A DNA stretch of 64,000 bases from contig NC_080577.1 in the NCBI RefSeq assembly GCF_029962835.1, forward strand, positions 3,720,001 to 3,784,000, read 5' to 3'. The notes beneath the pieces were generated by a model. It searched no databases and was not told where the DNA came from. It saw only the letters and a list, made by a program, of their open reading frames with translations. Positions within the stretch are counted from its first letter, which is position 1, and the number at the start of each line of letters is the position of its first letter. Source of the stretch: Magnolia sinica. Lineage: Eukaryota; Streptophyta; Magnoliopsida; Magnoliales; Magnoliaceae. Both the position numbers and the translations under genes were made by a program. This document shows, in pieces, positions 41,310 to 63,970 of this stretch.

Positions 41310-41790
41310 GTGGATTAGCTGCTGAAGTGCCCATCACCAAGTTCTGTAGGCCCCACCATGATGTATGTATTGTATCCGCACCGTCTATCCATTTGTAGAG
41401 ATCATTTTAGTGCATGAGCGAAAGAATGAGTCATCCAAAGCTCGAGTGGACCCCACCACAAAACATAGGGGAGAATAATGCCGACCATTGAAACCTTCCT
41501 AGGGTCCCCCGTGATGTTTATTTGAAATCCAACCTGTTCATAAGTTAACACAGACATGAATGAAGGTAAAACACAAATATCAGCTTGATCAAAAAACTTC
41601 TATGGCCCCTAAAAGCTTTTAATGGTAGGCATTCAAGCTCCGCTGTTTTCTGTGGTGGCGTCCACTCGAGCTTTGGATGTGTCTCATTCTTTGGCTCATG
41701 TCTTAAAATGATCTCTCCAAATGGATAGACAGTGCGGATAAAACACATGCATCATGGTAGGGCCTACCGAACTTGGTGACATCACTTCAG
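41310..41790. mobile_element. fold-back (GGGCCC family) element, full copy
   Basis: The best-preserved complete palindrome of the window. Left: CTGAAGTG, ATCACCAAGTTCTGTAGGCC, CCACCATGATGTATG, GAATGAGTCATCCAAAGCTC. Right mirror: GAGCTTTGGATGTGTCTCATTC, CATCATGGTAGGGCCTACCG, AACTTGGTGACATCACTTCAG. The centre has CCAACCTGTTCATAAG. The 67-residue minus frame across it is an artefact. Confidence 0.8.
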
Positions 41791-41882
41791 TACCCAATCT
41801 CGCTACTCAACCTGCCAGTAGCTTATCCGGAGTCCGAGAGCATCAGATAATTTCTCACATTTATTTTAAAATAATGTGTGGG

Positions 41883-42345
41883 CAAGGAGCCCTGCCATAT
41901 ACACGCAGCACACATGCCAATATGGAACATGTGCTTGATCATATCTTTCCATCAGGTGGGCTGCACCATTCAGATCTTCTGGCCTCAAAATCAGGCCATT
42001 TCACAGCATATGTGGACCATAACACAATCAAATTGACTGTGGGCAAAAAAAAAAAAAAAAACAGTTTTAACCATCAATCTACTTTGTACATGGTGGCCCA
42101 CCTAAGGAGTGAAACAGCCTCGTCGTTCCCAGGCAGGAACTGCTCCTTTCCTTGAGCTCCCTCTTGAGTTCCTCTTAGGCGTTGATCTCACAACGGCCCT
42201 TGAGCAGGTCCTCATATTGCATCCGCCACCACAGATTTTGCAGCAGAAGATCTAAGCATCATCTTCATTAGATGGAAAACTCACATCTATCATGCACGTT
42301 CCATATTGGCCCATATGAATGCAGGTGGATAGGCCGAGATACACA
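41883..42345. mobile_element. TIR element carrying a GC-richer insert, possibly a captured gene fragment
   Basis: The left arm CCTGCCATATACACGCAGC, GCCAATATGGAACATGTGC, CTTTCCATCAG is mirrored by the right arm (reverse complement CCTGCATTCATATG, GCCAATATGGAACGTGCATG, GTTTTCCATCTAATG). Between the arms, 42117-42257 differs in base composition. On the minus strand it gives an open stretch ending WWRMQYEDLLKGRCEINA, one stop, then EELKRELKERSSS. I do not recognise the source protein. The left arm belongs to the dispersed family at 11755, 14650 and 17940. Confidence 0.5.
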
Positions 42346-42715: not shown

Positions 42716-42794
42716 TTATATCTCTGTGTCGCCACAACTTACAATCAGTTGGGAAACCATTCTGCGAGCAAAAGGAATGTAACTTAAACTGTAC
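42716..42794 (-). CDS. SFT2: SFT2 exon 6 (stop codon)
   Basis: 79 bp from acceptor CCTATTTCAG to TAA; it completes the Trp codon and encodes YSLSYIPFARRMVSQLIVSC and GDTEI. The YIPFARRMVS block is the most diagnostic part of the family. A run of about 22 T's on the gene strand follows within 50 bp, in the likely 3' UTR. Confidence 0.94.
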
Positions 42795-43667
42795 CTGAAA
42801 TAGGTCGAACATATTGCAAGCGGTCGTTGAGATGTGTCAGGTTCAGTGCTATTTGATGAATAAAAGAAGGTGAAGAAGAAACGTTTAAATTTATTGGCAT
42901 GTTTGGTTGATGGGGAATTCATTACATTGTTTTAATACTTTCCTGAGGAATAATAGAATTGGCTTAGTGTTTCTTGGGGAATGATTAAATTTTGTTTGGT
43001 TGATACACCAGTTTTCTAGGAAAACCTGGGGAAAGTCTAGAATTCTGTTTTTTAGTTCCCTCCTGGTTTTTCATTCCCCGGCTAAAAGCTGGGGCAAATT
43101 ATTTGAAGAAAAGCTATGGAATGGAATTCTTGAGGAATGTAGAAACTGACCAAAAGGTGTGAATCAAACTTGTTTTCTCAAACAGGGAATTGGTTAAACA
43201 CGTTTGGGATTTGGATTGAATCTCCAACTCAACGTAAGTTGTGAGAGCATTTGAATTTAATATTCATAATAGTATAGAGAACTTCAGTTACAGATGGGAT
43301 TGGTTTCCTATCTTAACGGAAACAAATCAAAAGACAAGAAAGGATAACTACAATTTTGAATACAGGATGATAGATCACAGATCACACGTAAAACAGTTGG
43401 AGATCAAGACTATCTTTTCACTGCTTCTTGTGAGAAAGACGTGGCGAGGGCCGAGGGGTGAGGAGCCCGAATATTATTTTTTATTTTTTTGGAGCGGCAA
43501 CAAAACACGCCCATATTTATCTCACAGGATAACAAAGTAGCAGTTCTCTGTCAAAATTCTAACAACCTTTACAATTAAACTCCACTTGACTGAAAGGGTG
43601 AGCCAAGACGACAAACAGGTGAACAGAAGGTTGGCTGAGTGCATCTCAAGTCCTGAAGTTATTCAAA

Positions 43668-43698
<31 letters not shown>

Positions 43699-46600
43699 CA
43701 TTTTTGAAGTGAGAGTTATCAAAGATGAAGCAAATGGTATGACAGATACAGTATCTCCCAAAGGTAGCCGAATGAGTAGGTGTTAGATTACCCAATAGGA
43801 GGTAAGGTATTATATTACGATTACACAAGGAAAATGGTGTTTTATGTTTGGAACATCAATGGTGCACATGGATGACATGCCTTGCAGTAAACTAAGCTGT
43901 TGATCAGACCATTCCATAATATAGTCCATAAGATTATCCTAGCCATCCAGTGAAATGGACAGTTGCAAACATCTTTGACATTCACAGGGTACCAAATCAG
44001 ATGGTTAGCATCATCTGAAGGCAAGACAACTTGGGCATATCCCCCATCCACAACGGAACCCACCACATGAATATTTGGACTACTAGAAAGGTTAGTCCCA
44101 TATGCAGTTTGGTTGGTCCCAAAACAAGCTCAGTTGAGCATATCTATATGTCCTCATATGGGATAGGCTAGAAACCCCACCAACATTACTTCATAGATTT
44201 TACAACGATGGAATCAGCATAGAAATATGCATGGGGAAAGTAGACTTACCAAATAAGGGCACAGATCTCAATTATAATTGCAAGTATCGTTAAGATCTTG
44301 TTATGAAACTGCATGACAGTTAGACAAGTAAAGATAAAATTCCCGCAAAAGAAATTTAAAAAAAAAAAAATTGCAAAAATGGTTCCCATAGATTGTTTGC
44401 AGAAAGACTCACACATAGAGCGCAAACAAGAGCAAGAACGACACTCCCGATGTAAATGGACGTTGCATAAATTCGGACAGGATCAAACATCATTCTTACT
44501 TGCCGTGCTAGCCCGATAACAAAGGCTGTGCTGCCACACATAGGTCCAAGTTTAGCCACTGAAATACAAGAGATGGAATTGAATTCAAAAATGCCCCAGG
44601 CAGCACAGAAAATACTTCCAACCCAATGAAACTCTAAAATGAAAAGCAACAGAGGATGAACATTTCCCGTATCTGATACACAGATACAGCATTTTAAGGC
44701 ACATTTGCAGCTTTTACAGTTAAATAAGGAACTAGGGGACACGGATACAATACAATGCATTACCTATTCTGAAGTATATGGATATCATTGAGAGAAATCC
44801 ATTCAGAGTTTGCAACTGAAGGCCTGTTTGGGTGAGAGCCCTCTATCATTCGAAATGGAATACTGCCATACACCTGGCACTGTCTAAAAAAGAGACCCCA
44901 AGCTATTTTCCAAGATTATGAGTTGGTGCAGACAGTCTTTGCATGCCAATCCGTGATCCACACACACAGCAAAAGCTGTAACATTACATCTATCCATTCT
45001 TCATGTGGGCCATAGTGATGGGAGAATGGGTTTTTCATGAGGTGCTGACAGGTTTTTTCATGTATATTGGGCAACAACAAGGAAAAATAGGTTCTGGGTG
45101 TCACCCAAACAGGCCCTAAGTGCTTGTTTGGATGTTTCAAGGTTGGCAAGGCTCTTGTGGGTTTTTAGGGTGGCATGGCAAACAGAACACATATTAAGTG
45201 GGCTTTCTATTTTTCCATTTTTCAACCTTTGGAAGCCAGGAACAGCAAAATGCATCATTTCTTGATGAGAAAAGGCAAAAGAATAAAGAAAAAAAAAAAA
45301 AGTGTCTGTGCGCCATGCGGTGATTCTTGGTGTTAAAACAGTTCAAATAAATAGTTGGTTACCAAGCAAGAACAGTTAAATTGGAAATATGAAATGCCTT
45401 AATTGAACAGGCCTACCTTCCAATCGCCAATAGGTTTCCAAAGCTGAATATTATAGCAAATTTCACAGGTCGGGCAAAAGCAACCAATGACTGCAAAAAA
45501 GGGGATCGTAGATTATATATTCCCATTCAGAACTGTGGAAACAATAACATACTCTCACATCTAAAAACAATTTCATTATATCCATTACATAACGATAGCC
45601 AACATCAGATCTAGCAGAAAGAGTGGGGACCCGACCGCCCATATCTTAATAGGGCTGCAACTTCGGTTCATGTCAACTCAAACCCAACTGACCAAACCTA
45701 AGTTCGGATCGGGTTGCCAGGCTCCTCAGGTCGGGTTAGGGTTGGAAAACTCCAACCCGATTTGAAATCGAGTTCGCTTCGGGTTGAGCAAATTTGATTC
45801 AGGTTGGGTTGGGAATAATCACATGTATTTGAGTCAAGTCTGATCAGGTCAGGTCGGTTTACGGTTAAGTATAGAGGATTTTAATAAGGCTAAGATTACA
45901 AATTGGCAGCCCATATGTGAGACAGAGGTGAACATGTGTCCTACTAGAACAAGTGCACCATGTATGGTATCGTGCAACAGTTGTTATAAAAAGGCAACTC
46001 AATTTATATAGTTCCTAACGTGAAGCTTTTTGCTCTTCACGTGTAATTTTCATGCATTCTCTTTTTTCCTGCATTATCTTTTTTTGTATTTGGTTATAAC
46101 CGCTATTCTGCAATTAATCAATTGTACATTGTAACTGCTATTCTTGGATACACAGTCTATAAATACAATTCTTTTCTTCTCTGCTCTCATGTTGTGAGCA
46201 ATGTTTTAAATATCGTTATCGCGTAATGTATTGAACCCTTGGGATACGGATAAATATCGGTTATTGCATGGGATATATCGGTTGTATCGCATAATGTATC
46301 GTTGTTGTTGGGAAACATAGGAACATTGAGAATTTGGTTGAATGTTTCAATGAAACTTCATGGATTGTTGTAAAAGACATCAATACACACTTAGAAATAA
46401 AACCATTACAAAAATAGTGCACATAATAGGGGTTTTATTTTTATGAGGTCCTAATATATGTGCTTTTCAACTGAACTGATGCAAGTATATTCATGTAATT
46501 TATAAACATAAGAAGACATGTATGGAAACACAATCAGTACATTCAAAAGCAAAAGAACAATCACTAGATCATGTTACATACATGTTTCATTTTGTGTTTG

Positions 46601-49600
46601 GATACAAAGATTACAACTGTTTTGTAAGAAATTGAGAAATTTTGTTTTTTTTTTTTTCTTCTCAATTTTCCACAACTTGACCCATCTCCCCCAAATCTCG
46701 AAATCGAAGTTCCAATCCATAATTTTTCATGGAAAACATGAAGAATCATACATTTGTAACCATTTGACACTGGTTTAATGTGATTTACAACAAAAACGTG
46801 GATCAAAATTTGAAAATGCTCACTGGATTGAATAGGTGAGATATATTGGCACTGTCTATGCATTTCGTATCGCACGGGCAGGATACAAGATATATCATGA
46901 GATATATCGGCTGGTATCGTCGATATTTAAAACACTGGTTGTGAGAGCTAGAGTAAACAAATATCTTTTTCAATCTCTTTATTTTCAAATTAAGGTATCA
47001 GAGCCTTCAACGGGAAGAGCCCTTTGAAGATTAAGAATTCTAAGAAGGAGAAGACACCCAGATTGGTAGAAGTTTGTCCTCTTGCACTGCCATCAAAGTC
47101 CAGCCTAGAGATCTCGTTGCCCATTTTGGTAGAAGACGGTTCATCCTTTTCGCTCGACTCTAATGGCTTCATTGATGGTGAATGTGATTTACCCATGCCA
47201 CTCTTCTTCTGACAATGTTTCAAATCATGTTTCTATGAAGCTATCATCTTCAAATTTTCTCTTATGGAAGATGTAGGTATCTCTCTTCTTGAAAGTGAAG
47301 ATATGATGGGGTTCATTGATAGAGAATATGACATTGCCAGAGCGCATGTTGGAATTACCCATGCCACTCTTCTTCTGACAATGTTTCAAATCATGTTTCT
47401 ACGAAGCTATCATCTTCCAATTTTCTCTTATGGAAGATGTAGGTATCTCTCTTCTTGAAAGTGAAGATATGATGGGGTTCATTGATAGAGAATATGACAT
47501 TGCCAGAGCGCATGTTGGAATTACCCATGCCACTCTTCTTCTGCCAAAGTTTCAAATCATGTTTCTACGAAGCTATCATCTTCCAATTTTCTCTTATGGA
47601 AGATGTAGGTATCTCTCTTCTTGAAAGTGCAGATATGATGGGGTTTATTGATAGACAAAATGCAATTGCCAGAGCCCATGTTGGAATTACCCATGCCACT
47701 CTTCTTCTGACAATATTTCAAATCATGTTTCTACGAAGCTATCAACTTCCAATTTTCTCTTATGGAAGATATAGGTATCTCTCTTCTTGAAAGTGAGATA
47801 TGGGGCTCATTGATAGAGAATATGACACTGCCAGAGCGCATGTTGGAATCCTCTAAATGATGAAGTTCAGTTAATGCTCAGCACACGGCCTGGAAGAAAT
47901 CAGATCATAAAGTTAAAGCCTACATCGCCAGTACCCTGTCTTATGAAGCCCTGGGGCTTGTGATTGGTTTAGAGTCGGCTGGGGATGTTTGGAGAACCCT
48001 GGAGAAAACCTATGCAGATGATTCTCAAGCAAGAGAAATTCAACTCACACAGCAACTGCAACCTCTTAAAAAGGGTGATTCTCCCTTATCTGACTATATC
48101 AATAAATTTAGAAGTATCAGTGATGATCTTGCCGCAATTGGACACCCTGTTATTGACAAGAACAAGGTATTTTGGCTTCTACAAGGACTAGGTCCAAGAT
48201 ATGAAAATGTTACAACAACAATGATGAAACCACCAGTATGCAGTTATGCTGAAATTATTCCCTTATTGCAAAGCTATGAAATTCGAACTCAGGCCCATGA
48301 AGCATCTGTTTTTTTCCCAATCAAATTACAGCCTTTATTGGTCTACAACATGGTCAGGGAAATAACATAAACCGCGACAATAATAGAAACAACACAAGGA
48401 ATTGGCAACAGTAAAATCAACAAATCTGGCAACAGGCAACAGTTTAATACGACTGGAAGGAATTTTTTTCAGGCTAGTTAAAATGGCTAGCAGGGACCAA
48501 ATAGAGAGCAGTAGGGCCGTCTTCCAACTGATCCCACTGGTGACCATCCAGGTCAACAAGGCCCACAACAACAGCAGTTTGTTTAGAATGCAGAAAAGTG
48601 TCAGATCTGTGGAAGAGAATCACCCAGCATTAGAAGGTTGGTATTGTTTTGATAATTCGCATCAACCTGATTCAGTGCCTCAAGCCAAAGTTACTAATCC
48701 TCAAGACACCAAGTGACTCAGCAGCTTCATCTCGTATGACATGAAATGCAAGCAAATTGACTAACCTTCCTCCTTATTCTGGGAATGATAGTGTTGAAAT
48801 TGTTGATGGTATTCAGTTGGCTATCTCTCATGTTGGGAATGCTCGGATTAATGTTGGAAAAAGTAATTTCTATATCCCTAACGTTTTGCTTGTCCTAGAG
48901 AGCAAAAAGAACTTACTCTTGGTTAGTCAATTTACTGGGGATTTTCCATGTGTTTGAATTCTCATATGATGGTTTTTTTTTTTAATCGAGGAAAATGCAA
49001 CACGAAGGATACTGGAAAAGGGGCTAAAAAAGGAGGAATTTATTCTCTTGCAGATGATGATGGTAAATTAACGTTTTTTCAGTCAGAAACAGGACCACTT
49101 CTGAAGTAGTTTGGCATCAACATTTAGGATACCTCTAATCAAGTGTTATTTAGTTTTTTTTTTTTTCAAAGAACTTCATTAGTATTAATGCATGGAATAA
49201 AGAAGCTCTATGTGCAATCGTTGTCAGATGGGAAAGGAATGCAAACTTCCTTTTAGTAATGTCAATAAAATTTCTTGAGCCTTTATTCAAAATTCACTCT
49301 GATTTATGGGGTCATGCTCCTGTTTGTCTAAAAATAAAAATAAAAAATTTGCCTACTATGTGGTGTTTGTTGATGATTACACAAGGTTCTCATGGATTTA
49401 TCCTTTAAGAGAAAGTTAGAATTTTTTTCTCTATCTTCCTGAATTTCAAAATTTTGTTGAAAAAAGATTGTAAAGGAAAATTAAAATTTTCCAAAGTGAT
49501 AAGGGGGTGAGTTTTCTAGTAATGATTTTTTTGGAAAATCAAGAAATTGTTCATCAAGTCTCATACCATGCAACACCTAAACAAAATGGAATTGCAGAAA

Positions 49601-52600
49601 CAAAACATAGAGTTATTTTTGAACTTGGCTTCACAATGATGTTTCAGTGCAGTGCTCCAACGAAATATTAGGTTGAAGCTTTCCACACTGTTGTTTATCT
49701 GATAAATCATGTACCCTCAATGCAATTGGATATGAAATCTCCATATCAACTACTATTTTGATGGATGGCAGATTATTCTTCTCTTAGAGTTTTTAGTTCT
49801 CGGTATTTTTCTTTATTAAAAAATTATGCTACGAATAAATTCAGCCCTAAGTCATTGGCATGTGTTTTCTTGGGATATATAGTCTTCAACAGAAAGAATC
49901 CAACTGTCTAAATCCTCAAGAAAGTTTACATATCCAAGCATGTGGTTTTTGATGAAAATATTTTTTCCCTCACTAATAGACTACTAAATAGTGTATAGGT
50001 TCATGGGGAGTTTACAACCAATGCCGATAGAACCGGTCCTTGTGACATGGGCATTGACTCTAGTGTCACACCCCAAAATTCGGCACCAAGTACCATTGTT
50101 GTCAAATGCGATTGCATATGTGCATAATGTAGATCGAATCGCATATCCCATGATGGCATATGTGATCCTGGCAAGTATGCCATGGCATACTTTTATATGC
50201 GACCAATATGTGATCGCATATGCGAGTATATGCGATCACATATAGCCAAAGTGGAAGCAAATTTTTTTTTTTTTTATTTTTTTTCAATTTGGAGAGCTTT
50301 TGCCTATAAATAGGCACTCATATCCCCTCCATTTTCACTATTCTTTACTCCAAAGCTCCAAATCTCTTACTCTCTCTCTTACTCTAATCTCTCTATAATT
50401 ATTTCAAGTATGTTTATTTTTTGTATTTTATAAGTTGTGCTTGCTTTTTGTAAATTAAGCTGTAAGTTATAACTTGTAAGTTGTTTCAAGTTATCCATTT
50501 ATGAGTAGAATTTCTTTGTTTGAAGTTTATAATAATTAGTTCTCTTTTAATGTAGCTTGATTGTTTTGTCAAAATTTATATAATACAATATAAGTAATTA
50601 AATATATAACTTAATGAAACACTCAAACTATAATGAAATAAGTAAAATAACCAAATCCAATCATGTGTACTAATCAGGCAAGTTTTTCCTTTTTTTTTTA
50701 GAATTTTTTCATTTTTTTTCCTTTTTTTCCTTTTTTATTATTTTATAAAAAATATGCCATGGCATATGCGATTTGACAACATTGCCAAGTACCAAGTCCC
50801 CGGTCCCAAGTTCCAGGATGTGAGGTAAATGAATCACACAATATTCTTGTTCAACATTCCCATCAAACCAATCTCAAGAAATATAATAAGAACTTCAATC
50901 ACATCAACTATTAAAGGAAATTAACTCATGTAGCAAATAATTACAAGGTCCATAATCACAATTAAAGTAAGAGATCCAAAACCATAAACAAGGTCCCACT
51001 AATCACTAAGCCCGGGTCTTATTACAAAGCCTTTCCTACTAAACAATCATTTTAAAACAAAATCTCAATATAATTGGTTCATTCTTCAAGATAATCTTCC
51101 TTCTCGTGGCAATCATATACATTGCATGTATATACACGAATCTATATCACGCAGTTACATATCTGAGGCAATCATATACATTCTCACATCTAAAAGAATT
51201 ATGATATGATGAGAATTCACTTTACTAGATTTTTAAGAAAAAAATCATCAAATGCTTTAGAAATAAAACTATCTAGCATACAGTGTAGATTCATAATGTA
51301 TACACATACAGTAATGGAATCCGGATGAAATCCCATTCTATCACGGCAAGCTAGATAGTTTTATTTCTAAAGCATTTGATGATTTTTGTCTTAAAAATCG
51401 AGCAAGGTGAATATTCACCCATTGTAACATGATTATTTTAGATGTGAGAATGTACATGATTGCCTAAGATATATAACTGTCAAGGTGTAACAAATCGGTT
51501 ACGTATCAGCCGTTACGGGAGCCGTAATGGCCGTTACGCCCCATAACGGCTGTTACTGCCCGTAACGGTCATAAACAGCTAGTTTTTTTCTCTGTCTTTT
51601 TAAGTTGCAATTTTTCTCATTTTTTGGCAATTTTCTCTTCCAAATTCTTTCATAAACTATTCTATTGCAAATTCTGACCACTTTTACCTTGAATTTGAGA
51701 TTCAAAACAAGTTATTTCAAGGATTTAGTTGAATCAAAGCCCCATAAGCCATTTTCCGAAAAATCTTCAAAAAAAGGTATTTATACCTTCTTCTTTTCTA
51801 AATCTCTGTTGTTGTGGTTGAATATGATGCGTTACTCAAACTAGAACAGATAAATATACATTTTACAAATTATGCAACTGACTTTCTTTTTTTATATATA
51901 TTTATAATATTTTCGGTCAATTTTTAAAATTTAGCAAACACCTACACATGTGAGATATTTTGACATTAAATTCATTTTAATATATCTATCATTGGTATTA
52001 AATAGTTAGAAAATTAAATCTATGAGTTTTGCAGTCAATTCAGACTATTAGGTTCATAAACTCATCAAACCACCCAATACAACTTTCTCAACAAAGAGTG
52101 GACGGTTACACCACCATGAACACGTTCAAATTTACAAATAAATGCATATTTGGAATATTTAGAATTTTCTGGATTTGATGGATATTTGTTCAGATTTTTT
52201 TAGAACAAAAAATTTTCTGACCGTTACAGGAGGCGTATCAGCTGTTATGAGTTCGTAATGGCCAATACGGCCCATAACCGTATCGATAACGATGGGCACC
52301 ATTACCGCAGTTGCTCCGGTGGTAGACTCTCAGGAGTTTCAACACCCAGTCAAGGGTTCGAGTATCCATAGGTGGTGAAATCCCATTACGGCGTGAGTGT
52401 GTGGGGGTGTGTGCTTGTGTAAAAAAAAAAAAAGTGTGTGATATAGATTCGTGCATAAACATGCAATAGATAGAATCTTGGGAAAACATTGGATTACCCT
52501 TTATGCCTAAATGACCTTATGTGATCTTTTGGAACCTGAAATTTGGGTCATAGGTTCGGTCAGCAACTAAGTCAATAGATTCCACCCAAATTCCATCATT

Positions 52601-55600
52601 ACATGTCTATACACCTCAAATCTACATTGTATGCTAGATAGTCTTATTTCTAAAGCATTTGATGATTCTTGTCTTAAAAATCCAGCAAGATGAATACTCA
52701 TTGTTTCATGATTCCTTTGGATGTGAGAATGTATATGATTGCCCAAGATCTAGAACGGTGTGATATGGATTCGTGTATATACATGCAATGGATAGAATCT
52801 TGGGAATACTTTGGATTTTCTTTGATTCTTGAATAACCTTATGTAATCTTCTAAAACCCGAAATCTTAGTTATGGGTTTGGTCAGCAACTAAGTCAATAA
52901 TATAATGGGATTTCACCTGAATTCCATCATTACATGTCTATACACCTCAAATCTACATTGTATGCTAGATAGTTTTATTTCTAAAACATTTGATGATTTT
53001 TGTAAAAAAAAACCGACAAGGTGTAATATTCATTGTATGATGTTTCCTTTAGATTTACGGCCAAAAAAATGTGTGAATTTATATACGGGAAAGTCTACTT
53101 TTATATATATGTAAAAACGGGAAATTCGACTTTTATATATATGTAAAAACATGTTCACAAATGTGATGTTGGAAAGTATGTACGTCTTGTATAGTAGTTT
53201 AAAAGATTACTTTGAATAATATGGTGGGATTTGTTACATTCGTAATGGTGGCATGTCTATGATTAGTAATATACGCTCATGGAAGAGTGATTGAGGAGAA
53301 TTCTATGTTTAGAAAGTTTCACCAACGTCATTTTTTGGAAAAGTTTTGGGAGAAAACCCGATCATGGGTTCCGAGGACACCAGCAAATAGTAGGGCGTAC
53401 ACCATCTCTCGAGTTACAAATCCCAAAAGCAAAATAGGAGGGCTTTTAAGAGCCTTAGGTTGAAACGGCCTCAAAACCCAATTAAATCCTCTTGGCCCAG
53501 GTGTAAGGTGAGAGTGTGTCACTCACAAAGGAACGGCAGGTAGATTTTGTATGATTAAGCTTATCATGTCCCTCACTATGATCCACGTGGATGAGCATGA
53601 TGAGAACTGCAAGAGGCCACAACTGGAACTGGTGTTGTATTGTGAAAGTTTTCACCTACCAATGATAAAAAGGCCCTAGTGTCACCGATGACTCGTACAG
53701 GTGAGTGATAGTGCATCCCCTGTGCATTGCATCATGCATCTTAGTGTAATTTAGGTCTATGAATCATATTGGAAATGAGATTTTAGTTTATCTTGTAATT
53801 ATTCATGACTTTAATCTCTTATGTTAATCGTCTCAAATACATTATATGTTAGAAAACCTGCCTTATTTGAAACCTACCTTAGTTGAAACGTGCCTTATTT
53901 AGAAACCCGCCTTATTTGAAAATTATTATTTTTGAATCATTGTCATTTTTAGTATACATTTTAGCATCATTGTATATGAATGCTTACCATTTTTAGACAT
54001 CTGCTATGTTTGGAAACTATGTTATTTTTGTCAAGTACTTATTTTGAAAATTAGATGGGATCCTCCTCTCTAAGCTTCACATTTCACCCATGTTTTGGAC
54101 ATTTTCGTCACAGGAATCGGCGTGGAGGATAGTAGCCATGAGAAGGAAGATTTTCTTGAAGGATGAACCGGTTATATTAAGATTTTGTTTTAGAATGATT
54201 GATTAGTAGGAAAGGCTTTGTAATAATACCCAAGTGATGGGTCTAGTGATTAGTAGGACCTTATTTATAGTTTTGGATCTCTTACTTTAAGTGTGATTGT
54301 AGACCTTGTAATTACTACATGAGTTAATTTCCCTAATAGTTTATGTGATTGAAGTTCTTATTATATTTCTTAAGATTGGTTTGATGGGAATCTAGAACGA
54401 GGTGTCCCCCATGCACAAGGGGCTTGTCATACTCTGAAGTAGCAGATTTTGCTAGCTTGTTGGGGCGCCTTCAGCCAATGTTGGAAATATCGATATCGCG
54501 TTACATATCGCATCCTTGGAATACCAATATGTATCAGTTATTGCACGGGATATATCGTTTGTATCGAGTAATTTATCACACTTTTTGGGAAACATTGGGG
54601 AAATGGTTGATTTTTTCAATGAAACTTCAGGGATTGTTTAAAAAAACCCCTTAATACACACTTTTAAATCATAACATTTCAAAAAATAAGTGCACATAAT
54701 AGGTTTCCATTGTATAGGGTCCTAAGTTATGCGTTGTTTAACTAAACTAATGCAATTATATTCAAATTGAATGTATAACATTTAGAGTGTATGTGATTAT
54801 TATTCCATCAAATACTCCTAAATACTTTGAAATTAGTCTCGATTGACAAATGGTTGAAGGGAAATTTCAAAAAAAAAAATAATAACAAATATTTTTATTA
54901 ATTTTTAATTAAAAATTATTTTTATTTTCTGAAAGTTGACAAGGACTTAACAAATCAATATATCAGCCCTCGTACATGCTTGATTTCATGTTTGGAATGC
55001 AACATTGCAAGCAATTTGAGAGAAATTGGGGAATTTTCCAATCTGCCCCAAATTTTCCCAAATCGGACCACTTACACTCATATTTCGAAATTAGTGTGTA
55101 TGTGATGATCATTTCATCAAATACTTTGAAAGTAGTCTCAATTGGCAGCTGGTTGAAGGAAATTTTCAAAGAAAAAAAAAACATGGAGAACATGAAGAAC
55201 CAATGGATATCGATATCAAAGCTCCAACCCCATGATTTTTCATACAAAACATGAAGAGCCAATGGATTCATAACTATTTGACACTGATTTAAGATAATTT
55301 CAACAAAAGAAAAAAGGAATGAAAAAGTCTCCTCCTCATGGCTGGGGGGCAAAAAGCATATGGGGATGACAATCACAAATATTTTCCTTCTTTGAATGTC
55401 GAATGTGGCATCTATCGATCACTTATTGCTCCATTGTCCCTTTGCTAATCATCTTTGGATCCAGATTCTGCATTTATTCAATGAGGTGTGATCAATGCCC
55501 TAGTCAGTTCCGCAACTAATTTGGGTGTGGCATGGCCCTCAATTGAAAAAGAACCTCTTAATATTGTGGCATTTGTGTTTGAATATCTGGGGGGAATGGA

Positions 55601-58600
55601 ACGCTTGATGCTTTAACGGCAAAACTAAATCTCCGGAAGAACTTTATTGGAAGATTAAGAGTGTCGTGTTGGAATGGGCTCATGATCTACATCATCTGGA
55701 CCTTAATGTATCTCACCCCATTTTGGGCTTGTAATTCTTAGTTGACTTGTATTTTTGCTGCTTGGCAATTGCCAGGCTTCTGTTTCAATAATATTATTCA
55801 TAACTCTTCAAAGAGAGAGAGAATATTGTGTAATTCTTTACCTCACACCCTGGAACTCGAGACCGGGGACCTGGTACTCGGTGCTGAATTTTCGGGTGTG
55901 ACATCCAGTGCCAATGTTAACACCATCACCATCCCTGAGTTGATCCCTCAGTCAGCCAACCAATCACAGGATGCCACCACACCCGCTTTAGGTGTTAATG
56001 TCAACACCCATTTATACCCACACATTGCTGAAGATAACTTGTCAATTGATGCTGTTGATGCTACTACACCTGTCAAGACACATGGTCCTGCTCCAACAAA
56101 TCATCTCTCTTTCTGTTGAACCTGAGCAACAATTCCTCATCATCTGAATAGGTGGATCAAGCAGCAGCCACTACTAACACACCTACCTCTAATCAAGACG
56201 CCATTGCCACCTCATCAAATGGTGATGATCAAGCATCTGCCGAAACACATCGGGTTGTCCAAGAAGCATCCTCTCATCCATACCGCACAAGATCAAAATC
56301 CAGAGTTGTCAAACAATTGATTCATCCTTCCATGTCTATTGTAGCATCATCCATTCCATCTACACTACTACACCTAAGTATATCAAATCCTTGGCACACC
56401 CAGGATGGTTTAAAGCAATGCACGAAAAAAATTTAAATATGCATGCTAATCAAACATGGGTTCTTGTACCACGTACTCCAAAGATGAATGTTGTTGGCTG
56501 CAGATGGGTCTACAAGTCTAAACTTAATCTGGATGGAAACTTAGAGAGATTAAAAGCCAAATTTGTTGCTAAGGGTTACAAGCATATTGTTGTCATTAAT
56601 TTTTACAAGCCAAACTTTTAGCCCAGTAGTCAAACCAAGTACAATTTGAATTGTTCTTACTGATGTTGTTGTTGTCTCTAGATGGGAGGTTAAACAACTA
56701 GATGTGAAAATTGCATTTTTACATGCTTTCTTGAAAGAACCAGTCTTTATGGAGCAGCCACTCAGATTCGTAGATACTAATTATCCTACACATGTCTATC
56801 AACTAAAATGTGCTCTGCATGGGCTTAAATAAGCTACTAGGGCATGGTTTGACAGATTAAGCATTTGCTCTCTTTGGTTTTTTTTTTTTTTGGTACCTTG
56901 CAGACTCATGCTTTCCGTTTCCCGTTCATCTCATGGTCCCACTCTGCCACTTTTATATGTTGATGATATTTTAGTTACCAGATATTCTACTACTTATTTG
57001 GAATGGTTTGTTGCTCAACTTGGCCGAGAGTTTGCTATGAAGGATCTTGGTCAACTGCATATTTTTGGGGGATTGATGTCTCCTACTTTGATGGTGGTAT
57101 GTTTCTTTCACAAACAAAATATGCCAAAGATCTTCTTGATTGTGAGCATATGAATGGAGCTCGTACTTTTTCTACTCCTATGGCTCTCAAACAGGAATTC
57201 TCCTCTAATGATGAGTTATTTTCTGATCCTACACTATTATAGTTCAGGTCCTACAATATTTGACTATGACCAGGCCAGATTTGTCATATTCAGTCAATAC
57301 AGTTTATCAACATATGGAAAAGCCTATCGTTGGCATTTTCAAGCTGTAAAAAGAATTTTGCGATATTTTGGCTGACACAGTTGATCTAGCTTTTCAGATT
57401 CTCTCTCATTCTACACTGAATCTCTATGCCTTTTCTGATGCCAACTGGGCAGGATGTCCATCTACAAGAAGATCCGCCCACCGGTTTTTGCACTTTTCTT
57501 GTAGCAAATTTAATCTCCCATGTGCTAAGAAACAACCCACTGTATCTTGGTCCATTGCAAAAGCTGAGTTAAGGTCTATGGCTTCTACAGCTACAGAATT
57601 GACTTTGCTAGGTTTTATTCTTCAAGATATCAGCATTTATCTTCATCAGCCTCCTATATTATTCTGTGATAATATGAGTGCTTTATACGTGTTTCTAAAA
57701 TCAATTTTTCATGCCAGAACAAAGCACATCAATTTAGACTATCACTTTGTTCGTGAGAAGGTGGCACTTGGTTTACCAGTTACAAGATTTGTTAACTCAG
57801 CTTAACAGCTAGCAGATGTTTTTAGCAAACCTCTCTCCAGGGATGTCTTTTGTTCCATCATGGTCAAACTTCACTTGTGCTCCTAGTCAAATTTAAGGGG
57901 GAGCAATAAGGCTAAGATTACAAATCGACAGCCCAGACATGAGACAGAGGAGCACGTGTCCTACTAGAACACGTCCACTGCGTATGGTTACATGCAACGG
58001 TTGTCATGGAAAGGCAACTCAATTTAGATGGTTACTAACATGGAGCTTTCTTGCTCTTCACGTGTAATTTTCGTGTATTATCTTTTTTCTTTTTTCTTTT
58101 TTGAGTCTTCTTGAGGTTTGGTGGGGCTTAGGTCGACCGTTAACCTGACCCAACTCGATGTCAGACAGATTGTGTTTCAATATTCAGGTCTCTGGTTCAA
58201 GCCAGCTTACCTATCAAAAAAAATCAGATCCAATAGGGAAAAAAAAAATGTAATGCAACTCCCAACTGCTGGAAAGCTGAAATATATGATATGGATTTAG
58301 AAATTCAATTTGCCCAAATCTGGATTCTGGGAGTACATTTAAAAAGAAAATCTTGAAGTACATAAACAAGTAGACAAGATTTGGTACCAAAAAGGTTCAT
58401 AAACTCACTCATAAAAACAAACATTCATCCCTCAATAGATCTAATCCCAAATTTGTGTGATTAGAAGACGTGAATCCTTCAGTCATTTGCTGATATTGAT
58501 TAAAAATTGGAACAGATATAAAAATCGACCTGATGACACTAAAATGAGAATTCAACAAATCTTCTATTTGACCATGTGGGATAATAGGAATACGACTAGC

Positions 58601-60313
58601 AACGGTAGTTACATCTTTCACAGTGCATAAAAGAACATATTAACATCATTCTGTTTCTATCTAAATAAAATCATCTTAGTGAACTGAACTGAACCTCGAT
58701 GGAACTAAGCATGAAAGATAAGAATGTTTTGTACTCACAACAAAAAACTAAGAGATCACTATCTTGAGTTATAGTTGCAGACTTTGAGTAAAGAAACATG
58801 AAGAAGATGAAATTTCCGCAAATAACATCATTCTAAACCAGCTTCAGCCAGTCAAGGCAGAAATCAAACATCAACAAACCATAAAAGGCTGTGTTTGGAT
58901 GCAACAAGTGAATCGAATTGAGAACATTCTATTCTATAAAGAGAAAATGGAAAATTTATTTCCAAGTATTCATAATGGGAGAGTAGCCCTCAATTGTAGT
59001 TGCATTGTTTTCAAGTCCAACTTGGAAATAATGGAATTGTTGTTTGGGCATTGACCCTCAATATAAGTGCTAGAAAAGGAAATCACAATTTGGTTATTTC
59101 CACTTCCTTATATTGATGATGGCAATTCTATTCAATGGTCCATCCAAACACACTAAAACATTGCTCAGCTTCGAGACTAAAATTATACACTTCGCAAGCC
59201 CATCAATCTGAAATCACAGAAACAATGAAATCTTGAGAGACCCGGACAATCAAAGTGGGGGCCGTGACAGTCCATATTGATGGCTAGACATCTTTTCAGT
59301 TACAGCTGAATTCGACTGTCTGTTTTGTAGATCATTGTTTGGACAGGGAAAAAAAATGCTGCAAATAAGATCCTTTCTAAATCAGCAAGAACAGATCCAA
59401 GCATCCATGATCAAAGTCAAGTAGCATTCATCTACATGAAGAGGAATTCCACAACAATATGGCAGAGTATGACGGATCATACAGATGGCACATGATTGAC
59501 ACATGCATCAATCTACACCGTCCAAATTGTGTCGCCACAATGGACGCTCCACAACCCAAAAAATCACAAAAATCAGAGAACCCAGACCATTTAATCAGTA
59601 ACCATCAAATGGACGGAAAGAAAATCAGCCAACGGTCTAGATCAACTGTCAAAAGTTGATTGAATGAACAGTTATGTCCGTCCGTCTGACCATGGGTAAT
59701 GTCTGGATCGAATGCACATCTACCACGTGTATGGTGGAAGCATGCACGAGTACAATCCACCGTACTCTGCTCTCTTTTATTCTTTTTTCTTTTTTCTTTT
59801 TTTGGGAGGGGGGAGTAAGAAAAGAGGGTGTAAATGTCAGTTCCATTTTTCTACTTCAGTTACTTGAATTGAATAGTTCCCTTTTACTTGAATTGAGCAC
59901 TCCACTTTCTTACTACTCTAATAACAATAGTAGAAAGAAAGGGGAAGTATGCATTAAATATATAAAATTAAAAAAAATAAAAATTAAAATTAAAAAAAAA
60001 GGAAGGTTGTAAATATCAATTTCATGAAAGTAGATTTCATTCATACCAGTAGCATACAAAGAAAAGCAGCGACCAAACACCCCCCAAATCCATACAATCT
60101 CTGTTCAAAAAGAAACAAAACAGAAGCATGAGAAGATCGAAACCGCCACGAATAGAAGAAAAAGAGAACCCAGATGGCAGATTCTGAAGATGTTTCGAGG
60201 ATGGTTTGGACCTGCAATGGGGACAGAGGACAGTAGCAGTTGGATTCGTCCAAGAAGGGGTCTTGTTGTTCTTCTTCTTCCTCTGCTCTCAGGAGAGAAG
60301 TGATGCTCTTCAT
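42716..60313 (-). CDS. SFT2: SFT2/Got1-type Golgi vesicle-transport membrane protein, six exons
   Basis: Complement of join(42716..42794, 44250..44308, 44413..44530, 45417..45490, 60047..60100, 60212..60313): 486 bp, 161 residues plus stop. Every intron is GT-AG and every junction keeps the frame. The protein has an acidic cytosolic N-terminus (residues 1-34, RAEEEEEQQDPFLDE), then four membrane segments at about 36-58, 62-84, 96-116 and 119-142. Landmarks are SPLQRLYGF, RPVKFA (59-64), GSTAF, MMFDPVR (90-96) and YSLSYIPFARRM (137-148). Order, spacing and length fit the Got1/Sft2 family (about 160 residues). Yeast Sft2 is a Golgi membrane protein that acts with the SNARE Sed5 in vesicle fusion; the plant role is inferred by family. 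Intron sizes are 111, 14,556, 886, 104 and 1,455 bp. Intron 2 contains a whole nested copia retrotransposon, antisense to the gene. No inactivating change was seen in the exons. Confidence 0.93.
43670..43700. repeat. (CTT)n microsatellite in SFT2 intron 5
   Basis: About ten CTT/TTC triplets. They generate a poly-Glu frame on the minus strand that is not a gene. Confidence 0.9.
44250..44308 (-). CDS. SFT2: SFT2 exon 5
   Basis: 59 bp from acceptor GTCATGCAG to donor GTAAGT; it encodes FHNKILTILAIIIEICALI and the first two bases of a Trp codon. Fourth membrane segment. Confidence 0.92.
44413..44530 (-). CDS. SFT2: SFT2 exon 4
   Basis: 118 bp from acceptor TGTGTGGCAG to donor GTGAGT; it encodes (S)TAFVIGLARQVRMMFDPVR and the third membrane segment IYATSIYIGSVVLALVCALC. 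The MMFDPVR loop is a strong family marker. Confidence 0.93.
44821..45116. mobile_element. MITE with GGCCTGTTTGGGTGA ends in SFT2 intron 3
   Basis: The left end GGCCTGTTTGGGTGAGAGCC and the right end (reverse complement AGGGCCTGTTTGGGTGACAC) share 15 exact bases. At 296 bp without coding capacity it is a typical MITE. The superfamily is unresolved because the flanks do not show a clean duplication. Confidence 0.75.
45417..45490 (-). CDS. SFT2: SFT2 exon 3
   Basis: 74 bp from acceptor CTTTTTTGCAG to donor GTAGGC; it encodes SLVAFARPVKFAIIFSFG and NLLAIG plus two bases of the next codon. It completes segment 1 and starts segment 2. Exons 1 and 2 lie on the far side of the retrotransposon. Confidence 0.92.
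45650..45884. mobile_element. hAT-like MITE fragment abutting the copia element
   Basis: It starts TAGGGCTGCAACTTCGGTTC and continues with CGGATCGGGTTGCC, GGTCGGGTTAGGGTTGG and CAGGTCAGGTCGG. This is the CGGGTT-rich hAT MITE type also seen at 39955. The copia 5' LTR starts at its right edge, so the copia may have inserted into it. Confidence 0.5.
45885..46989 (+). repeat. 5' LTR of the copia element, split by a hAT MITE
   Basis: 45885-46198 and 46946-46989 are LTR. The first part matches 57906-58090: GGCTAAGATTACAAATTGGC, TGTCCTACTAGAACA, AAGGCAACTCAATTTA and CTCTTCACGTGTAATTTTC. TCTATAAATACAATTCTTTTC near 46157 is a likely TATA box. The rest is the inserted MITE. Confidence 0.85.
46199..46937. 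mobile_element. hAT-type MITE (ATATCG family), 739 bp
   Basis: Ends CAATGTTTTAAATATCG and, reverse-complemented, CAGTGTTTTAAATATCGACG. A perfect 8-bp target duplication GTTGTGAG lies at 46191-46198 and 46938-46945, as expected for hAT. Many self-complementary ATATCG/CGATAT words cluster near both ends. A truncated relative lies at 54476-55310. Confidence 0.93.
46990..47190 (+). other. copia primer-binding site and leader
   Basis: GGTATCAGAGCC near 46995 is complementary to the 3' end of initiator tRNA-Met, which is common in plant copia. The leader that follows contains a short open frame (47024-47212) ending at the first 166-bp repeat. Confidence 0.75.
47191..47855 (+). repeat. 166-bp tandem repeat, about four copies, at the gag start
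   Basis: The unit CATGCCACTCTTCTTCTGAC ... ATGGAAGATGTAGGTATC ... GAATATGACATTGCCAGAGC recurs with starts at ATGGAAGATGTAGG 47264, 47430 and 47596. A fourth, shorter unit begins near 47762. Copies are 95% alike or better. Because 166 is not a multiple of three, each copy shifts the reading frame, which is why near-identical 64-residue frames begin at 47264 and 47430. The array therefore breaks any gag frame crossing it. Confidence 0.92.
47870..48370 (+). pseudogene. copia gag (UBN2-type) relic
   Basis: After a frameshift, KKSDHKVKAYIASTLSYEAL leads into VWRTLEKTYADDSQ, QLTQQLQPLKKGDSPLSDYI and FRSISDDLAAIGHPV, a typical UBN2 gag capsid-like domain of a copia polyprotein. A run of 136 codons is still open. 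No full polyprotein remains. Confidence 0.85.
48400..48960 (+). pseudogene. copia zinc-knuckle and protease/pre-integrase relic
   Basis: VRSVEENHPALEGWYCFDNS near 48600-48660 resembles a CCHC knuckle (C-x2-C-x4-H-x4-C) with three Cys lost (to S, S and G). VEIVDGIQLAISHVGNARI and YIPNVLLVLESKKNLLLVSQ (48790-48940) match the protease-to-GAG_pre-integrase link of copia. Frames are broken. Confidence 0.75.
49080..49985 (+). pseudogene. copia integrase relic
   Basis: Recognisable in several frames: SEVVWHQHLGYL (about 49097), FKIHSDLWGHAPV (49289), YYVVFVDDYTRFSWIYPLRE (about 49355), HATPKQNGIAETKHRVI (about 49567), YLINHVPSMQLDMKSPYQLL (about 49697) and KFSPKSLACVFLGYI (about 49838). D-D-E core surroundings are partly kept. 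At least six frame changes or stops occur. Confidence 0.85.
50094..50784. mobile_element. hAT-type MITE (CATATGCG family), 691 bp
   Basis: Ends CATTGTTGTCAAATGCGATT and, reverse-complemented, CAATGTTGTCAAATCGCATA; perfect 8-bp target duplication CCAAGTAC at 50086-50093 and 50785-50792. The terminal 150 bp on the left are packed with self-complementary GCATATGC/TATGCGATC words. The middle is T-rich. No coding capacity. Confidence 0.94.
51481..52308. mobile_element. hAT-like MITE (CCGTTACG family)
   Basis: The left end GGTTACGTATCAGCCGTTAC, GGGAGCCGTAATGGCCGTTAC, CCCATAACGGCTGTTAC is mirrored at the right (CCGTTACAGGAGGCGTATC, GTAATGGCCAATACGGCCC, ATAACCGTATCGATAACG). It interrupts a sequence whose intact form is seen at 52730-52770, so the inserted block (with the following SINE) spans about 51481-52433. 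The exact target duplication is obscured by the SINE. Confidence 0.7.
52309..52433 (+). mobile_element. tRNA-derived SINE, family 1
   Basis: TTGCTCCGGTGGTAGACTCTC, B box GGGTTCGAGTATCC, GGTGGTGAAATCCCATTACG, GTGTGTGGGGGTGTGTGC and a poly-A tail. It sits at the right end of the CCGTTACG element, so it is the deepest insertion at this point (fourth level counting intron, copia, inverted-arm element). Confidence 0.85.
52434..53050. repeat. about 331-bp tandem repeat inside the inverted-arm element
   Basis: TCTACATTGTATGCTAGATAG occurs at 52621 and 52952, and GTGATATAGATTCGTG with CATGCAATAGATAGAATC before the first corresponds to GTGATATGGATTCGTG with CATGCAATGGATAGAATC before the second. A further copy at 51350-51480 is interrupted by the CCGTTACG element, and an inverted one lies at 51110-51300, so the interior is itself a palindrome plus tandem units. 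Confidence 0.8.
54476..55310. mobile_element. truncated hAT-type element of the ATATCG family
   Basis: CAATGTTGGAAATATCGATATCGCG, then GGGATATATCG, TTTTGGGAAACATTGG and CAATGAAACTTCAGGG parallel 46199-46937. The right terminal repeat is missing; the match ends near 55310 where a LINE fragment follows. Both strands give frames of 92-137 residues without any domain. Confidence 0.75.
55395..55740 (+). pseudogene. LINE (L1-type) 3' ORF2 fragment, zf-RVT region
   Basis: IDHLLLHCPFANHLWIQIL near 55410-55470, then, after a frame change, SVPQLIWVWHGPQLKKN, IWGEWNA, and ELYWKIKSVVLEWAHDLHHL. This is the reverse-transcriptase-associated zinc-binding segment at the end of plant L1 ORF2. About 110 codons remain, with frameshifts. 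It lies inside the right arm of the 5.8-kb element. Confidence 0.8.
55904..56390 (+). pseudogene. copia integrase-RT linker relic
   Basis: Ser/Thr/Ala/Gln-rich frames (SANQSQDATTPAL, DAIATSSNGDDQASAETHRV, ending HPYRTRSKSRVVK) are the low-complexity linker between integrase and RT in copia polyproteins. SHPYRTRSK is a common marker just before the RT. The linker resumes directly after the 5.8-kb insertion. Confidence 0.7.
56391..57375 (+). pseudogene. copia reverse transcriptase relic
   Basis: NQTWVLVPRTPKMNVVGCRWVY, KAKFVAKGYKH (56391-56610), then in other frames VKQLDVKIAFLHAFLKEPVF (about 56690-56750) and YQLKCALHGLK. LLYVDDILVT near 56955-56985 keeps the YVDD active-site motif. A T-rich expansion (56878-56892) splits the domain. 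AYRWHFQAVKRILRYFG (57320-57372) ends it. Multiple frameshifts. Confidence 0.88.
57376..57890 (+). pseudogene. copia RNase H relic
   Basis: FSDANWAGCPSTRRSAHRFL, AKKQPTVSWSIAKAELRSMA, PPILFCDNMSALYV, ARTKHINLDYHFVREKVA, then a stop and QLADVFSKPLS. All core RNase H blocks of copia are present in one frame of 145 codons. This is the best-preserved domain. Confidence 0.9.
57906..58105 (+). repeat. 3' LTR of the copia element, truncated
   Basis: ATAAGGCTAAGATTACAAATC, GTCCTACTAGAACACG, AAGGCAACTCAATTTAGATG and CTCTTCACGTGTAATTTTCG match the 5' LTR. The similarity is lost after the ATTATCTTTTTTC region, so about 180-200 bp remain. Confidence 0.8.
58106..58886. other. SFT2 intron 2, remainder, nothing recognised
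   Basis: Single-copy-looking intron sequence; small frames only. Confidence 0.35.
58887..59153. mobile_element. MITE in SFT2 intron 2
   Basis: Left end GGCTGTGTTTGGATGCAAC and reverse-complemented right end GTGTGTTTGGATGGACC. TAAAA flanks both sides (58882-58886 and 59154-59158). ATTCTAT/ATAGAAT words mirror each other inside. 267 bp, non-coding. TAA-containing flanks would suit PIF/Harbinger, but this is not certain. Confidence 0.65.
59154..60046. other. SFT2 intron 2, 5' part
   Basis: Intron sequence directly downstream of exon 2 (minus strand), with A/T-rich low-complexity stretches at 59776-59805 and 59965-60002. Frames of 65-112 residues here are chance. Confidence 0.4.
60047..60100 (-). 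CDS. SFT2: SFT2 exon 2
   Basis: 18 codons from acceptor TTTTTGAACAG to donor GTATGA; it encodes RLYGFGGCLVAAFLCMLL, most of membrane segment 1. Phase 0 at both ends. It is followed by the 14.6-kb intron. Confidence 0.92.
60212..60313 (-). CDS. SFT2: SFT2 exon 1 (start codon)
   Basis: ATG at 60313-60311 with A at -3; 34 codons ending CCATTGCAG before donor GTCCAA; phase 0. It encodes the acidic N-terminal tail. An out-of-frame upstream ATG at 60360 opens a 16-codon frame whose TGA overlaps this ATG. Confidence 0.9.
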
Positions 60314-60390
60314 GCTCCTGTATGGCTTGGATCGAAGAGATGCGGCTCTGTAATTTTCATTCCATGGATTCGGGGAGAGAGAAAAGGAGA
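60314..60390 (-). promoter_or_regulatory. SFT2 5' leader with two upstream ATGs
   Basis: On the minus strand ATGGAATGA at 60365 is a two-codon upstream frame. ATGAAAATTACAG at 60360 opens a 16-codon frame whose TGA shares bases with the main start (ATGA). Whether the transcript includes them is unknown. A fold-back element begins within about 80 bp, so little native promoter remains next to the gene. Confidence 0.45.
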
Positions 60391-60600
60391 CTCAGACTGG
60401 GTAGTATCCCTCCACCACCCAAGTCGGTGGTGGAAAGGCTCTGTGCGCCCCACCATGATTTCTGTGTTTTATCCACGCCGTCCATACATTTTTCCATCTC
60501 ATTTTAGGCTATTAGCCCAAAAATGAGGCAGAAACAGTGGTTAAGTGGACCGCACCACAGGAAATAGTGGGTATTGAATGCCTACCGTTGAAAACTTCTT
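60391..60600. mobile_element. fold-back (GGGCCC family) left half at the SFT2 promoter
   Basis: CTGGGTAGTATCCCTCCACC, CCACCACCCAAGTCGGTGGTGG (an inner hairpin), GCTCTGTGCGCCCCACCATG, CCACGCCGTCCATACATTTTTC, AAAAATGAGGCAGAAAC and GTGGACCGCACCACAGG, in left-arm order. The outer end faces the SFT2 start codon. Confidence 0.75.
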
Positions 60601-60860: not shown

Positions 60861-60912
60861 CTATATTGGGGCTCATCAAAGGAGCAGATTGGCCTCACTC
60901 AACACAACAACG

Positions 60913-61270
60913 GCCCGTTTGGCCGGGTGGATTGGAAGGGATTGAATGGTATTAGGGTGGATGGCATGGATTTCAAGGTAACGATGGTGTTGTCAGTGGA
61001 TTGTCTTAAGATCCATGGGATTACTATATCGAGTCTGTTTGGCACGCCCAGCCAATCTTGAGATTAAACCTTCCCATCCCTTCGAACCAAACATGTCCCA
61101 GGCAAGTTTGAACAGATTAGGGTTGATTGGATGAGATTTAAAGGTAATGATGGTGTTGTCAGTGGATTGTCTTAAGATCCATGGGATTGCTATATCCGGG
61201 ATGATCACCCCGCCCTGTTTGGCATGCTTGGCCAATCTCGGGATTTAACTTCCAATCCCTTCCAATACCT
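60913..61270. mobile_element. MITE with GGCCCGTTTGG end, inverted relative to 33372-33783
   Basis: It starts GGCCCGTTTGGCCGGGTGGAT and contains GATGGTGTTGTCAGTGGATTG twice (about 60982 and 61149), the same internal duplication as the copy at 33372. The right end is GGCCAATCTCGGGATTTAAC followed by CTTCCAATCCCTTCC. Confidence 0.7.
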
Positions 61271-61399
61271 TCCTATCCCCCAGCCACATGGGCTGGAAGG
61301 CCCTAATGTGGTGATGTTTGATTGGGCCATGTGTTGCCTTCAGAGATGGAGCCATCAATACGCAACTTACACATAGCTACGCTGCATCCTTAACCACAG

Positions 61400-63175: not shown

Positions 63176-63526
63176 CTGGATCCCGGTCGCACTTAATTCG
63201 GTCCGCCAAGATCGTCGCCCGAAGCCACTCCTCTGCCAACCCGCTTCCGAAGGTACCCCCTCCGTACACACCGGCTCTCCGCCTCTCCTCTCTCGTCAAT
63301 GGAGATTTGGCCGTTGATCAATGCATAGGCGGCGAATTGAAACGTTAAGATTTTCTTATATTAGGTATCTTTTGGGTGGAACTCAGCAACCAACGGTCTG
63401 GATTGGATTACCGAGAGGCCCCCGATTATCAGATCAGAAACCGGTGTGTACTGCGGAAAGACAGACGCAGGTCGCGTATCATTTCACTCCTCTGTCCACC
63501 TTCTCACGCTTATCTCTCTCACGACC
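63176..63526 (+). promoter_or_regulatory. LTO1 upstream region
   Basis: GC content rises next to the gene. CCCACGTGG at 63169-63177 contains a CACGTG G-box core. Pyrimidine-rich CTCTCCGCCTCTCCTCTCTCG at about 63275 and CTTATCTCTCTCACG just before the ATG are typical of plant 5' leaders. No TATA box was fixed. Confidence 0.4.
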
Positions 63527-63970
63527 ATGGCATCTCCTTCTCTAAACACTAGGAATCTCGAAGACATCTTCGATTCGTCTCTCAAGCTTGAAGAAACTCA
63601 CTGCGACGACGGTTTCAGAGACGGATTCAACGACGGCCTGATCTCCGGAAAACATGAAGGAAGAGAGGTGGGCCTGAAGCTAGGGTTTGAAGTCGGAGAG
63701 GAGGTAGGATTTTACCAAGGTTGCATCGACGTATGGAATTCGATCCTCCGCATCGAACCGAGCAGCTTCTCGTCAAGGGTTCAGAAGAACATGAAGCAAA
63801 TGGAGGAATTGCTGGAAAAATACCCTATCTTGGATCCGGAAGATGAGAATGTTCAGGAAATCATGGATGGTTTGAGGTCGAAATTCCGAGCGATTTCGGC
63901 GACGCTCTCCGTGCGATTTGAGTACGACGGGTATCCAAAAGTGTCTGATGATAAGGATATTGGATTTTGA
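63527..63970 (+). CDS. LTO1: LTO1/ORAOV1-type Yae1-domain protein, complete single exon
   Basis: 147 residues, MASPSLNTRNLEDIF to DDKDIGF, stop TGA. ATG at 63527 was chosen because its context ACCATGGC is strong and the protein then starts like its family; an in-frame ATG at 63446 would add 27 leader-like residues. Residues 29-65 form the deca-GX3 motif: glycines at 29, 33, 37, 41, 45, 49, 53, 57, 61 and 65. It is followed by YQGCIDVWN and a helical C-terminal half. In yeast and human, Lto1 pairs with Yae1 to bring the ABC protein ABCE1 (Rli1) to the cytosolic iron-sulfur assembly targeting complex, supporting ribosome recycling. The plant role is inferred. Length fits the family (about 140-165). 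The C-terminus ends in Phe, whereas yeast Lto1 ends in Trp. The gene is divergent from SFT2. Confidence 0.93.
   Translation: MASPSLNTRNLEDIFDSSLKLEETHCDDGFRDGFNDGLISGKHEGREVGLKLGFEVGEEVGFYQGCIDVWNSILRIEPSSFSSRVQKNMKQMEELLEKYPILDPEDENVQEIMDGLRSKFRAISATLSVRFEYDGYPKVSDDKDIGF

Follow-up and report, generated by a model that had tools for sequence, protein, structure and literature searches.

Got1/Sft2-like proteins, a family with about four hydrophobic membrane segments, are located in the Golgi and have a role in vesicle traffic. The closest described parallels to the gene structure considered here come from plant genome papers, the available portions of which report that long introns are widespread among Chloranthales and magnoliids, arising in Chloranthus largely from LTR elements (PMC8626473), and that introns of Magnolia biondii average about 2,774 bp while their median is 525 bp, implying some exceptionally long introns (PMC7917104). 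The accessible text of the Magnolia sinica genome paper likewise gives a mean gene length of 11,297 bp. A further parallel is found in Arabidopsis RPP7, for which the available part of the relevant paper describes a copia element, COPIA-R7, in the first intron and the suppression of a proximal poly(A) site by EDM2 at H3K9me2 (PMC7529245). A literature search on SFT2 in plants turned up, in the accessible parts of the sources, nothing on the structure of the gene described below.

We analyzed a stretch of 64,000 nucleotides of Magnolia sinica DNA (C5:3720001-3784000; hereafter the window), in which a gene with six coding exons can be recognized on the minus strand, reading from 60313 to 42716 (Table 1). 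The exons join into 486 nt, i.e. 161 codons and a TAA stop, and are separated by introns of 111, 14,556, 886, 104 and 1,455 bp, all five of which have GT-AG borders. The spliced product matches the Pfam Got1 family (PF04178) with an E-value of 1.7e-32 and 112.7 bits (curated cut-off 24.6), spanning positions 1-110 of the 110 in the profile, and shows no visible difference from this family. In a 19-residue hydropathy scan it displays three stretches, the last of which (residues 95-145, 51 long) has room for two helices. We tentatively take the gene to belong to the Sft2 rather than the Got1 subgroup, both of which are pooled in Pfam. Solved structures contained no sequence match to the product up to E 1, and searches for its relatives gave 19 pattern matches in viral contigs and 163 in prokaryote genomes, none of which was confirmed. 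A first-pass annotation of this DNA had proposed just such an in-frame, six-exon model with GT-AG borders, encoding a 161-residue Got1/Sft2 protein, and this proved right to the base, with the PF04178 match covering the whole profile. Its estimate that exons 2 and 3 lie 14,556 bp apart, about 23% of the window, agrees with our measurement of 22.7% (in a gene with a total length of 17.6 kb), and the exons are indeed free of stops and frameshifts, the reading frame and all 20 splice dinucleotide bases being kept.

Table 1. Features of the SFT2-like gene and of the elements within its introns (window coordinates)
Feature	Position	Strand	Remarks
SFT2-like coding exon 1	60212..60313	-	102 nt, ATG start; 100% over residues 1-34 (genome-wide protein search)
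Coding exon 2	60047..60100	-	54 nt; donor GTATGA; paralogue exon 2 is 54 nt
Intron 2	45491..60046	-	14,556 bp, GT-AG, phase 0; paralogue intron 2 is 1,742 bp
Coding exon 3	45417..45490	-	74 nt; paralogue exon 3 is 74 nt
Coding exon 4	44413..44530	-	118 nt; paralogue 118 nt
Coding exon 5	44250..44308	-	59 nt; paralogue 59 nt
Coding exon 6	42716..42794	-	79 nt, TAA end; paralogue 79 nt
Ty1/copia retrotransposon, old, broken, antisense to gene (span including nested insertions)	45883..58102	+	LTR-like pair, gag_2, Pol_BBD, RVT_2
Left LTR-like end	45883..46084	+	83% to right copy
166-bp unit, four tandem copies, just upstream of gag	47189..47849		
Copia gag remnant	47864..48367	+	gag_2 PF14223, E 5.4e-24
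Pol_BBD	48745..48954	+	E 3.7e-5, below curated cut-off
Second insertion, 5,840 bp (40% of intron 2)	50064..55903		inverted terminal sequences TGTCACACCC...
Small inverted-repeat insertion, in left arm of the 50064-55903 insertion	50096..50784		
RVT_2 (PF07727) remnant, piece 1	56229..56618	+	E 2.5e-5, short of curated cut-off
RVT_2 (PF07727) remnant, piece 2	56650..56829	+	E 1.7e-10, sole piece above curated cut-off
RVT_2 (PF07727) remnant, piece 3	56833..57150	+	E 2.3e-5, short of curated cut-off
Open frame at expected RNase H place	57350..57802	+	no Pfam match; labelled by position and motif
Right LTR-like end	57905..58102	+	purine-rich tract just before; looks truncated
MITE-like inverted-repeat element in intron 3	44821..45115		

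The genome (1,838,573,281 bases in 127 contigs) contains a second copy with which this model can be compared. A genome-wide protein search yielded ten candidates, all of which were scored: six are the exons of this locus itself, with one match each, in order and on a single contig, three belong to a paralogue on C4, and the tenth, on C2, matches weakly (E 2.4). The paralogue model, built from 29.7 kb around the C4 match, has exons of 111, 54, 74, 118, 59 and 79 nt and introns of 4,912, 1,742, 803, 86 and 1,543 bp (five of five GT-AG), and joins without an internal stop into a product with 96 of 161 aligned residues identical to those of the SFT2 gene here. Its exon 1, and with it intron 1, was placed by means of a weak hit (E 0.021, 35% identity), the candidate exon having an ATG start and an in-frame end at a CAG/GT border. 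Genome searches flagged stops at C4, namely two TAA in the Got1-profile search and one TAA in the protein search, because the six-frame match overruns the exon ends into the introns. Exons 2-6 are equal in length in the two copies, whereas intron 2 of the present gene has 8.4 times the length of its counterpart in the paralogue, and the two versions of this intron have only short matches in common, 73 bp at most. Intron 1, if the paralogue's exon 1 is right, differs the opposite way, being 111 bp here against 4,912 bp on C4.

The identical lengths of exons 2-6, together with the short intron 2 of the paralogue, argue that the junction across the 14.6 kb is not a chance join; it is the predicted exon 2/3 junction common to both copies. 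This bears on whether the two exon groups belong to one gene at all, since an assembly join or a rearrangement might have set exons 1-2 beside unrelated transposon sequence, and the 14.6-kb gap is repeat-rich, the kind of region where assemblies can err. However, exons 2-6 recur with the same order, phases and lengths in a paralogue whose intron 2 is short, six of the ten genome-wide protein matches are the locus's own exons, in order on one contig, and the window is without any N, all of which renders such an artifact extremely improbable. The first-pass annotation had held that an intact second SFT2 copy elsewhere, combined with lack of expression from this locus, would speak against its proposal; the first half of this is what we find, in the form of the intact-looking copy on C4.

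More distant members of the family are also present: Got1-profile matches in the genome number ten, with six on C9 (84.65-85.58 Mb), two on C10 (7.63 Mb) and single ones on C4 and at the present locus. Four of the C9 matches are first-part matches within 0.92 Mb (84.65-85.57 Mb), which we take to be a different, longer SFT2-like type, probably forming a tandem cluster. We also weighed, and rejected, the existence of an intronless retrogene elsewhere, as no contiguous Got1 match in the genome exceeded 44.7 bits (17 of 17 candidates scored), versus 112.7 for the spliced product.

On its upstream side the SFT2 gene is closely followed by a dispersed repeat (60374-60559) that starts 61 bp from the start codon and is 81% identical to 36132-36318, with partial copies at 41343-41498 and 4711-4874; hence, the promoter or the 5' leader overlaps a repeat. 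Another stretch, 60912-61279, matches 33398-33781 at 82%. About 3 kb away, and head to head with the SFT2 gene, a plus-strand frame (63365-63970) matches Yae1_N (PF09811, E 2.5e-10) and presumably represents an LTO1/Yae1-like gene. As no convincing LTO1/Yae1 homologue was detected in the 29.7 kb around the C4 paralogue (best E 4.2), we claim no synteny. Stop-to-stop frames of 110 aa or longer number 22 in the window; 17 of them were searched against Pfam, the others being 41742-42152, 44359-44763, 59668-60009, 60044-60391 and 60188-60523. Relevant matches were obtained for three of seven frames (gag, RVT_2 and Yae1_N), and none of ten further frames matched at E 0.01. No RNA family was found in the window at its gathering score.

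The first-pass annotation had also described an antisense copia element with insertions of its own in intron 2, and this is borne out by gag, Pol_BBD and RVT_2 matches on the strand opposite to the gene and by the nested elements. A copia-type gag is followed by the reverse transcriptase in order on the plus strand (PF14223, PF07727), and a direct repeat pair of about 200 bp, 83% identical, constitutes the LTR-like ends. The reverse transcriptase survives as three pieces in two frames, i.e. the element is broken. Of ten smaller pieces of the copia region sent to Pfam three matched at E 1, and the other pieces tried, including the expected integrase and RNase H stretches, had no match; we assume the places of these two regions from motifs and position. 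Full LTR borders and a target duplication of the copia element were looked for and not found. The accompanying statement that the gap is mostly a copia element holds for the span, which takes up 12,207 bp or 84% of intron 2, but not for copia sequence proper, which amounts to at most 6,367 bp (44%) once the insertion splitting it is subtracted and is lowered further by the 166-bp tandem array and another repeat.

The insertion at 50064-55903 splits the copia element between the integrase and reverse transcriptase regions and is flanked by TCTAG and TCCAG, resembling a 5-bp duplication with four of five bases alike. One repeat is common to 46199-46795 and 54476-55308, and a member of a repeat family of about 120 bp lies at 52311-52433; this family recurs at five other places in the window, near 400, 5470, 9690, 32250 and 39720 (79-90% alike). 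Repeats also mark the rest of the window: there is a degenerate tandem array at 24988-26410 whose units measure about 33, 67 and 136 bp (GGGCCCACCTTGATGTGGACCATCCATCATG-like), a repeat of about 680 bp present in direct (21920-22582 and 23977-24659, 86%) and inverted (27620-28301, 72%) orientation, and a duplication in direct orientation that is about 1.7 kb long (14307-16003 and 17608-19246, 79%), beside which another pair of stretches also matches (16553-17186 and 19383-19977, 68%). In intron 2, splice-like words were counted against 60 Markov sequences (GGTAAG 2 versus 2.1, AGGTATG 0 versus 0.8), and acceptor-like words number 4 versus 1.5 in the Markov sequences, though the true acceptor may be one of the four; we attach no conclusion to these counts.

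With regard to copy number, a genome search with the LTR, which skips very common words, returned two candidates, both from its own pair, and a search with gag, in which 150 of 6,866 candidates were scored, gave a next best match by score of 50% identity and a highest listed identity of 54%. Given that the LTR matches its own pair only and that the gag neighbors among those scored are at most 54% identical, the copia copy in intron 2 looks isolated in the genome. The two LTRs have diverged by a K2P distance of 0.167 over 184 sites, which would place the insertion at 12 or 6 million years with the faster substitution rates of 7e-9 and 1.3e-8, respectively, and at about 55 million years with a rate of 1.51e-9, giving a full range of 6-55 million years. 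The last of these rates is, according to the available portions of the Liriodendron and Chloranthus genome papers, the one used there (Chloranthus: PMC8626473), and the LTR divergence peaks given in the same portions, 0.05 for Liriodendron and 0.03 for Chloranthus, are both smaller than the value obtained here.

For exons 2-6 of the paralogue pair we obtained a pn of 0.20 and a ps of 0.72, at which synonymous sites are saturated, with a bootstrap range for pn/ps of 0.20-0.40 (1,000 bootstraps). Judged by this sequence comparison, the pair shows long-standing constraint, most of which would predate the copia insertion. For the time since then, drift was simulated with the exons decaying at the LTR rate from the insertion onwards (4,000 runs per rate). 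At the full LTR rate 24% of the runs had no stop, 1.5% had neither stop nor frameshift, and 0.3% additionally had all 20 splice bases unchanged; the frame and all splice bases survived in 4.9% of the runs at half this rate and in 22% at a quarter of it. Because mutation is expected to proceed faster in methylated transposons than in exons, and because the simulation takes its indel rate from two gaps, it is not proof and is only suggestive of continued constraint since the insertion.

These results also allow us to weigh whether the locus is turning into a pseudogene, with transcripts stopping in the intron, the C4 paralogue doing the job, and the frame still intact since too little time has passed. 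Retention of intron 2, or read-through into it, would give a product of only 53 residues, an intact-looking paralogue does exist, and the intact frame and splice bases are matched by chance in the 22% of quarter-rate runs mentioned above. On the other hand, the divergence of the LTRs, compared with the Liriodendron peak in the available text, indicates that the insertion is not recent, the frame and all 20 splice bases have nevertheless been kept, and the saturation of synonymous sites suggests that the paralogues split long ago and are not freshly redundant duplicates. We hence regard decay of the gene as distinctly unlikely.

The Arabidopsis precedent raises another scenario, in which heterochromatin on the intronic copia would regulate the gene via premature polyadenylation, the mode of control that EDM2 exerts at RPP7 and IBM1. 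The silenced element might then tune full-length SFT2 against the 53-residue product through an RPP7-like switch that would be absent from the short-intron C4 paralogue, and a housekeeping trafficking gene would thereby possess an RPP7-like epigenetic switch. Intron 2 does hold a long decayed element, and AATAAA is not depleted on its sense strand (19 versus a mean of 15.4 in 60 Markov sequences; 11 on the antisense strand), yet this count is near the chance value and the sequence lends such a switch no support. The RPP7 case, as described in the available part of its source, is comparable in having a copia element within an intron of a protein-coding gene, but RPP7 is an immune receptor, whereas the present gene is by family a trafficking gene with a decayed element; moreover, the RPP7 transcript ends in the 5' LTR of its element (PMC7529245), which would imply a sense orientation, while the element here is antisense. 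We consider this form of regulation highly unlikely at the SFT2 locus.

Our preferred reading, to which we give a probability of roughly 0.86, is that the locus is a conserved and ordinary member of the Got1/Sft2 family whose intron 2 was swollen by an old antisense copia element, and which is transcribed through and spliced normally. Intron 2 would have been enlarged about eight-fold relative to the paralogue, mainly through the Ty1/copia insertion, with the copia element probably taking further insertions later. Most likely, RNA polymerase passes through the decayed elements during transcription and normal GT-AG splicing then removes the whole intron, such that the protein would be unaffected. 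In its swollen intron and conserved coding exons the gene resembles the long introns of Chloranthales and magnoliids, with LTR elements named as the major contributor in Chloranthus; the partner in our comparison (14,556 versus 1,742 bp, with exons 2-6 identical in length) is a paralogue, whereas orthologues were used there, and as far as the available text extends there is otherwise no difference of substance (PMC8626473). With long transposon-bearing introns common in the lineage and a mean gene length of 11,297 bp in M. sinica, there is nothing out of the ordinary in a gene of 17.6 kb that has a single intron filled by transposons. The unusualness implied by the first-pass annotation is thus at odds with the long introns reported, in the accessible portions of the sources, for Chloranthales and magnoliids and for Magnolia biondii (PMC8626473, PMC7917104): the gene is genuine without being exceptional, and is one more example of a magnoliid-type long intron. 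Nor do our results support the description of the gene as hidden or likely to escape gene finders, or the suggestion that splicing efficiency or heterochromatin inside the intron matters for its expression. The gene offers a well-bounded instance of a heavy transposon burden being tolerated by a plant gene that has stayed conserved, and alters no general picture; the C4 paralogue, with the same exon layout, could act as an in-genome control for studies of intron length versus expression.
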